From: a virus
Strand: one strand, 5' to 3'
DNA length: 59,972 nucleotides
Virus record (IMG/VR): IMGVR_UViG_3300025137_000039
Span: 1 to 59,972 of that record
Made by a program: the position numbers and the translations under genes. The notes beneath the pieces are model-generated. The model made no database searches. It was not told the origin of the DNA and saw nothing but the letters and a program-made list of their open reading frames with translations. Position 1 is the first letter of the stretch. Each line of letters starts with the position of its first letter. Shown piece after piece: positions 1,138-1,847 of this stretch.

Positions 1138-1150
1138 CACCTAGTTGACT

Positions 1151-1199
1151 ATGTGGGGCAAATGAGTTATACTATGTGGAGCACATGTATGGGTCACAT
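1151..1199 (+). repeat. TGTG-N3-CACA repeat cluster, upstream half
   Basis: ATGTGGGGCAAAT (1151-1163) and ATGTGGAGCACAT (1174-1186) are spaced 23 bp apart, followed by a degenerate copy at 1187-1199. The consensus ATGTGGGGCACAT has 5-nt complementary arms around a GGG centre, as in a small operator. The copies lie directly before the ATG at 1204. Confidence 0.6.
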
Positions 1200-1203
1200 A
1201 GTA

Positions 1204-1386
1204 ATGCCCTTCTCCTCTAAGTTTCCTAATCTAGGTAAGACTGTGAAGACTAGAATCCCTGAATCATGTTATCACCATGTCATCCTAATACTGGATGAAT
1301 ATGAGAGGATTGCAGAGGCAAAAGGAACCATCTTTCTAGAACAAATGCAAGGAAGATTAGAGGAAAGTCTGACTAACATAGTGTGA
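1204..1386 (+). CDS. 60-aa hypothetical flanked by repeats
   Basis: The product has a helical C-terminal half (VILILDEYERIAEAKGTIFL). This looks like small cyanophage proteins with a PESxY...ILDxYExI pattern, from memory. The frame could open further upstream at GTG 1153 or ATG 1162, but those codons lie inside the TGTGGGGCACAT repeats, which recur in non-coding DNA after the stop. ATG 1204 is therefore preferred. Function unknown; possibly the protein that binds the flanking repeats, which is untested. Confidence 0.5.
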   Translation: MPFSSKFPNLGKTVKTRIPESCYHHVILILDEYERIAEAKGTIFLEQMQGRLEESLTNIV

Positions 1387-1388
1387 TC

Positions 1389-1454
1389 ATGTGGGGCACA
1401 TAGAATGCCAGTGTGGGGCACATATGTGGGGCATATAGTTTATATGGGGCACAT
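1389..1454 (+). repeat. TGTG-N3-CACA repeat cluster, downstream half
   Basis: Four near-identical 13-mers are present: ATGTGGGGCACAT at 1389-1401, GTGTGGGGCACAT at 1411-1423, ATGTGGGGCATAT at 1424-1436 and ATATGGGGCACAT at 1442-1454. They match the cluster before the 60-aa gene. The spacing (22, 13 and 18 bp between starts) is not periodic enough for a CRISPR array and resembles repeated binding sites. Confidence 0.65.
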
Positions 1455-1568
1455 GAAATAAAGGTGTAAATAAATGTACCTGGGTTTTGTTATCTAAGCG
1501 TGCAGTCTATCACACACTCTGAGAAATGTCAAGACCACACAGACACTTCCCCAACTGCACATGATCCC

Positions 1569-1597
1569 TTGACAGACACACTAAAATGCCCTATATT
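1569..1597 (+). promoter_or_regulatory. sigma70-type promoter TTGACA-17-TATATT
   Basis: A perfect -35 (1569-1574) is followed after 17 nt by TATATT (1592-1597). Transcription would start near 1604 and run toward the 30-codon frame at 1689. It resembles host-RNA-polymerase early promoters rather than the gp55-type late sites elsewhere in the window. The 1387-2072 stretch around it contains no normal-sized gene. Confidence 0.65.
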
Positions 1598-1781: not shown

Positions 1782-1799
1782 TACTTAGTGAGAGTGCTA

Positions 1800-1833
1800 T
1801 GTGTTACACATGGGTTTTCTTATGTGTAACACA
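1800..1833 (+). repeat. perfect 12-bp inverted repeat
   Basis: TGTGTTACACAT (1800-1811) is the exact reverse complement of ATGTGTAACACA (1822-1833), separated by 10 nt. Each arm is itself a TGTG-N3-CACA near-palindrome, the same core as the repeats at 1151-1454. No T run follows, so it is more likely an operator or RNA structure than a terminator. Confidence 0.65.
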
Positions 1834-1847
1834 CAGGTCCACAGTGG

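Follow-up and report, generated by a model that had tools for sequence, protein, structure and literature searches.

Copies of a short dyad flank both sides of a tiny viral gene, and the question is whether gene and sites work together and, if so, how. We analysed the whole 59,972-nt stretch of IMG/VR record IMGVR_UViG_3300025137_000039 (the window), which carries gp25-type baseplate and Kyanoviridae genes and, judged by its sequence, is a T4-like cyanophage of the Kyanoviridae type. Between positions 1151 and 1454 we found six 13-mers with at most one mismatch to ATGTGGGGCACAT (O1, O2 and O4–O7; Table 1), versus 0.11 ± 0.31 expected from dinucleotide shuffles of the window, and the rest of the window held no further match at this threshold. 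The seventh copy, O3, has three mismatches in the window, while the equivalent site in four of five distinct relatives reads GTGTGGGTCACAT and has only two. Since the window count of the 13-mer at three mismatches is close to chance, the strength of the array rests on its tight matches. The dyad TGTGNNNCACA occurs six times in the window versus 1.45 expected, and once in approximately 548 kb of other cyanophage DNA. The GGG centre points in the same direction in all seven copies, and their irregular start-to-start spacing (23, 13, 202, 22, 13 and 18) rules out a CRISPR array. These results confirm the original prediction of seven irregularly spaced, GGG-centred copies on either side of a 60-codon gene, with six copies tight and one weak, and its open reading frame was called correctly, as all nine distinct homologues share an MPF(S/T)SK start. 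Rather than being scattered evenly over the genome or missing from relatives, either of which the prediction had named as grounds for abandoning it, the array was confined to this locus in the window and was found at the same locus in the relatives.

The upstream copies lie on a sigma70-type promoter, TTGACT-17-TATACT, that matches the consensus at 10 of 12 positions. O1 occupies its spacer, O2 begins right after the −10 box, and O3 comes next. All nine distinct contigs examined have this promoter in the same position, with a 17-bp spacer and with O2 placed 23 bp from O1, such that repeated specific sites overlap the regulator's own promoter in each of them, as in an autoregulated repressor–operator module. 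Among six contigs with GGG-centred sites, the site arms were invariant at 87% of positions versus 59% of spacer positions. The promoter beneath the upstream copies had been overlooked in the original prediction.

Table 1. Features of the 60-codon gene, its dyad sites and the neighbouring intergenic region, in window coordinates.
Feature	Position	Strand	Sequence and remarks
Sigma70-type promoter of 60-aa gene	1145..1173	+	−35 TTGACT 1145–1150, 17-bp spacer, −10 TATACT 1168–1173
O1	1151..1163	+	ATGTGGGGCAAAT; in −35/−10 spacer; same position in nine contigs; centre GGG or TTA, depending on protein class
O2	1174..1186	+	ATGTGGAGCACAT; over expected transcription start; 23 bp from O1 in nine contigs
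O3	1187..1199	+	GTATGGGTCACAT; weaker candidate operator directly 3' of O2; GGG-class contigs only
Gene of 60-aa putative DNA-binding regulator	1204..1386	+	Conserved start; dN/dS well below 1
O4	1389..1401	+	ATGTGGGGCACAT, exact; centre CCC (inverted) in L017
O5	1411..1423	+	GTGTGGGGCACAT
O6	1424..1436	+	ATGTGGGGCATAT
O7	1442..1454	+	ATATGGGGCACAT
Noncoding element	1492..1512		ATCTAAGCGTGCAGTCTATCA; conserved across 65 IMG/VR contigs and in several isolates
Leftward promoter TTGACA-17-TAGACT	1504..1532	-	Toward downstream array, antisense to gene; 17-bp spacer in nine of nine loci
Rightward promoter TTGACA-17-TATATT	1569..1597	+	Before 30-aa ORF (1689–1781)
Orphan site, other specificity class	1799..1811		ATGTGTTACACAT; identical in L039
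Orphan site, other specificity class	1822..1834		ATGTGTAACACAC; 33 bp missing beside site

Protein searches of IMG/VR recovered six other contigs whose proteins are 87–95% identical to that of the window and whose array layout is the same. Three further contigs (L039, L098 and L099) carry a divergent homologue, 55–60% identical to the window protein. L039 was found by comparing contigs that share the downstream noncoding element; its homologue (55% identical) lies in the same place, and its sites keep the position and the TGTG/CACA arms seen in the window, but read ATGTGTAACACAT. Once L039 had revealed a link between centre and protein, a second protein search yielded L098 and L099, each encoding a protein of the L039 type, and both fitted the link, as their sites are TAA/TTA-centred. 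Near the gene, the six contigs encoding the KTRIPES-type protein hold 41 in-register G-centred sites of either polarity and no TWA (TAA/TTA) site, whereas the three encoding the ELMRFP-type protein hold 17 TWA sites and no GGG site. In a 115-kb relative contig, every TWA- and GNC-centred dyad falls within 0.9 kb. With one vote per contig the association between centre and protein class has p = 0.012, a value to be read with the relatedness of contigs within each class, and the switch was probably one evolutionary event. Divergence of the site sequence together with the protein, GGG- versus TWA-type, is a second property of an autoregulated repressor–operator module. Between the classes, residues 1–13 and 30–37 are largely identical (11 of 13 and 7 of 8, respectively) and residues 14–29 are not (only 4–5 of 16), as one would expect of a stretch that reads the variable centre.

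Comparison with the relatives also suggested that gene and sites have travelled together. Positions 1145–1465 of the window share 93% identity with the GGG-type contig L018 and 57% with L039, whereas the adjoining 333 bp (1466–1798) are 96% identical to the TAA-type L039 and 64% identical to L018. The window therefore looks like a mosaic with its junction at the right edge of the array. Past the junction, the window keeps two sites, identical or nearly identical to their L039 counterparts, that look like orphans from the other specificity class; L039 has four TWA-centred sites here versus two in the window, and the 33 bp missing from the window, between repeats, hold the other two. As the cassette is GGG-like and its flank TAA-like with orphan TAA/TTA sites, the gene and its sites appear to move as a unit. 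These two dyads, which belong to the family of the array sites and differ in their centre, were absent from the list made in the original prediction. They lie, within 1797–1836, upstream of a further promoter, TTGACA-17-TAGACT (1848–1876); CATAGGGGGACATG in the spacer of that promoter was considered as an operator and not counted, because it is constant across protein classes.

The 60-aa gene is under purifying selection both within and between classes (window versus L017, dN 0.109 and dS 1.23). Profile searches of Pfam and NCBIfam returned no match to the protein, and even at E = 10 no ribbon-helix-helix (RHH) family was matched. A search of PHROG gave no convincing match; phrog_2108 was rejected as a relative, as it reached an E of about 0.05 only and is absent from three cyanophages. 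A PDB sequence search found no solved relative, and no homologue was found in isolate phages, plasmids, or bacterial or archaeal genomes. AlphaFold, run as a monomer with two alignments, predicted three helices (residues 8–17, 20–40 and 42–57; pLDDT 80), for which Foldseek returned no structural match in the PDB. By eye only, the KTVKTRIPES stretch followed by a long helix is RHH-like and KTxxxRxP is strand-like; in RHH proteins the strand takes shape only on dimerisation. An alignment against CopG-like sequences with hhalign, in which both profiles were thin, gave a probability of 0.5%. The G-X-S/T/N motif described between the helices of RHH proteins (PMC2812701) is not kept, the corresponding residues being G41-T42-I43 in the window and G41-I42-E43, G41-L42-D43 or G41-L42-V43 in the other class. 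Membership of the RHH group is thus unsupported by profile search, PDB sequence search, AlphaFold, Foldseek, hhalign and the loop motif alike.

Taken together, we consider it likely that the locus is an autoregulated regulator–operator cassette with at least two specificities that is exchanged as a unit. Among the functions originally proposed for the array, an autoregulated operator set is accordingly favoured, as nine contigs have two copies on the promoter, each at a constant position, and the site centre changes with the protein; a packaging signal or mRNA elements fit worse with arrays at one locus and with single sites whose centres are inverted. From the anatomy of the locus, its conservation, the class-linked centres and the mosaic junction we infer binding, dimerisation, repression and their timing as follows. 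The 60-aa protein would act as a regulator that binds DNA, probably as a dimer, at the dyad ATGTG-N3-CACAT, with the protein class setting the central three bases (GGG here, TAA/TTA in the other class). By occupying O1 in the promoter spacer and O2/O3 over the start site, it would obstruct host RNA polymerase and so limit its own synthesis early in infection. Autorepression alone does not explain the four sites after the stop codon. O4–O7 and the distal sites may extend control to the next intergenic region, where the leftward promoter (1532–1504) and the promoters that follow would be the most likely targets; alternatively, they may provide additional sites for binding and titration. The gene appears to pass between phages as one unit with the sites that flank it.

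The position of the downstream sites brings in the leading alternative. The conserved element and its leftward sigma70-type promoter (ATCTWAGCGNGCAGTCTATCA ... TGTCAA) recur in 65 IMG/VR contigs and in isolates including Bellamy and S-SM2. In the 600 bp left of the element we counted 56 cyanobacterial-type DnaA boxes (TTWTCCACA) in a total of 30.7 kb, versus 9 in 488 kb from other parts of these contigs, an approximately 100-fold higher density, with all of the boxes lying within 160 bp. About half of the other cyanophage contigs that share the element have such boxes and about half do not, and the same clustering was found in four isolate or single-cell records (S-SM2, S-P4, S-BM3 and AG-345-O18). 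The boxes adjoin AT-rich runs. O4–O7 occupy this very slot. The downstream cluster could thus be part of a replication origin, its dyads serving as iterons for the 60-aa protein or for DnaA-like factors of the host, and a transcript from the adjoining leftward promoter could prime replication, as at T4 origins. The DnaA boxes of the relatives, and the yet other repeats that fill the slot in other contigs, speak for an origin. The window locus itself has no DnaA boxes, its motif is a dyad that shares only TGTGG with the DnaA box, and neither S-SM2 nor S-BM3 shows a GC-skew switch at the slot; moreover, an origin leaves the conserved placement of O1 and O2 on the promoter unexplained. We therefore regard an origin as unlikely. 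The slot may control either the leftward promoter or an origin, with the binding factor differing between lineages. Many contigs free of DnaA boxes carry other repeats there, such as units around CTGTGGNGTNT, or TATCTGGGGTGTCTTC...GTTACT, left of the element (L038, L066, L068 and L082; L044, L049, L062 and L069), and this variety suggests that the slot exchanges binding-site types. In L034 (S-BM3), dense CTAGTCTAGA-type repeats lie to the right of the element, at approximately 2060–2300. None of the papers listed in a literature search combined 'cyanophage' and 'DnaA box'.

The sites could also be bound by another phage or host factor, with the 60-aa gene as a linked passenger, and the failure of profile and structure searches to reveal a DNA-binding domain would fit such a role. 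As the site centre tracks the protein class and both move together while flanking genes change independently, we find a passenger gene decidedly improbable. A role in RNA, with the dyads acting as small hairpins in mRNA stability, termination or antisense pairing, draws on the ability of the 13-mer to form a 5-bp hairpin, on the minus strand of the downstream array, which folds better than shuffles (z = −3.3), and on the leftward promoter, which would transcribe that array. A lone 13-mer, in contrast, folds at just −1.6 kcal/mol, a stem pair is broken in several variants (ATATGGGGCACAT, ATCTGGGGCACAT and ATGTGGGGCAAAT), and O1 lies upstream of the transcription start, so its own promoter would leave it untranscribed. 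L017 has CCC in place of GGG between the same arms at the site that follows the stop codon, and the third upstream site is also turned; such inverted centres in single sites indicate that polarity is unimportant, which argues against RNA. We judge a role in RNA very unlikely. Searches of Rfam and for tRNAs returned nothing. That the array is a neutral product of tandem duplication, or a mobile repeat devoid of function, is barely credible, since its tandem copies and variable copy number, including the 33-bp difference between distal repeats, are set against promoter placement that is invariant in nine contigs and arms that are conserved more than spacers.

The preferred reading, an autoregulated regulator–operator cassette, has precedents that each match it in part. 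The relO operator consists of [A/T]TGT[A/C]A hexads arranged as inverted 12-bp palindromes over −10 to +17 (PMC2812701); these inverted hexads are close to ATGTG-N3-CACAT at O2. Functionally, relO is the closest described operator. As with RelB/relO and the small RHH autorepressors CopG and Arc, a short protein is encoded beside its own operator, but the cassette has no detectable sequence or predicted-fold similarity to them and does not keep their G-X-S/T/N motif, no toxin partner is seen, and many sites follow the gene. In Cluster A mycobacteriophages, stoperators are 13 bp long and mostly in one orientation, with some in promoters and most not, and repressor and site motif co-diverge into distinct specificities (PMC6550527). 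Length, prevailing orientation and co-divergence are shared with the cassette, whereas stoperators are spread over the genome of a temperate phage and tied to lysogeny, and the dyads described here all fall within about 1 kb, in a T4-like phage that is not known to be temperate. Stoperators are also asymmetric. In lambdoid immunity regions repressor and cognate operators are swapped as a block, and exchange of regulator and operators together as a module is likewise seen here; the difference is that the locus has a single 60-aa gene, with no cI/Cro-like pair or lysogeny functions seen.

Several early and middle regulators of T4 are missing from T4-like cyanophages, which seem to rely on sigma70-like promoters (PMC2984593); how these phages control their early genes is poorly understood. 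A tentative and rather doubtful extension of our model is that these phages carry an immunity-like module, a tiny regulator plus operator set with several mutually exclusive specificities (GGG, TWA and perhaps GNC). Being swapped as a cassette, it would let phages of one type cross-regulate each other during co-infection, and those of other types would escape. As the slot is a DnaA-box control or origin region in relatives, control by host DnaA may on this extension be replaced by a phage factor. The cassette suggests that phages thought to be lytic swap regulators, and a concrete candidate for a control or origin site in cyanophages is the DnaA-box slot beside the same conserved promoter. While this kind of mechanism is already known, an orphan putative regulator of 60 aa with natural specificity variants is unusual in a T4-like cyanophage; having no recognisable family, it offers, with its variants and operators, a small and directly testable system of protein–DNA recognition.

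Two further matches were set aside, an inverted TGTGCCCC pair in L025 as a chance match within a zinc-ribbon-like gene, and a match in a Leptolyngbya phage, inside a tRNA array, that was taken as chance. A third type of centre (TGTGGACCACA and similar) occurs among the sites of L098 (4230, 4249, 4802 and 4858) and L016 (3696); no cognate protein gene was found for these GNC-centred sites, a point against the cassette model, and they may be left over from a third class of specificity. In L012–L016, an inverted GGG-class pair (TGTGCCCCAT ... ATGTGGGGCACAT) lies approximately 430–480 bp 3' of the gene, before a GTTAGTTACCTCTAAAG motif that is also present in the window near 304–320.
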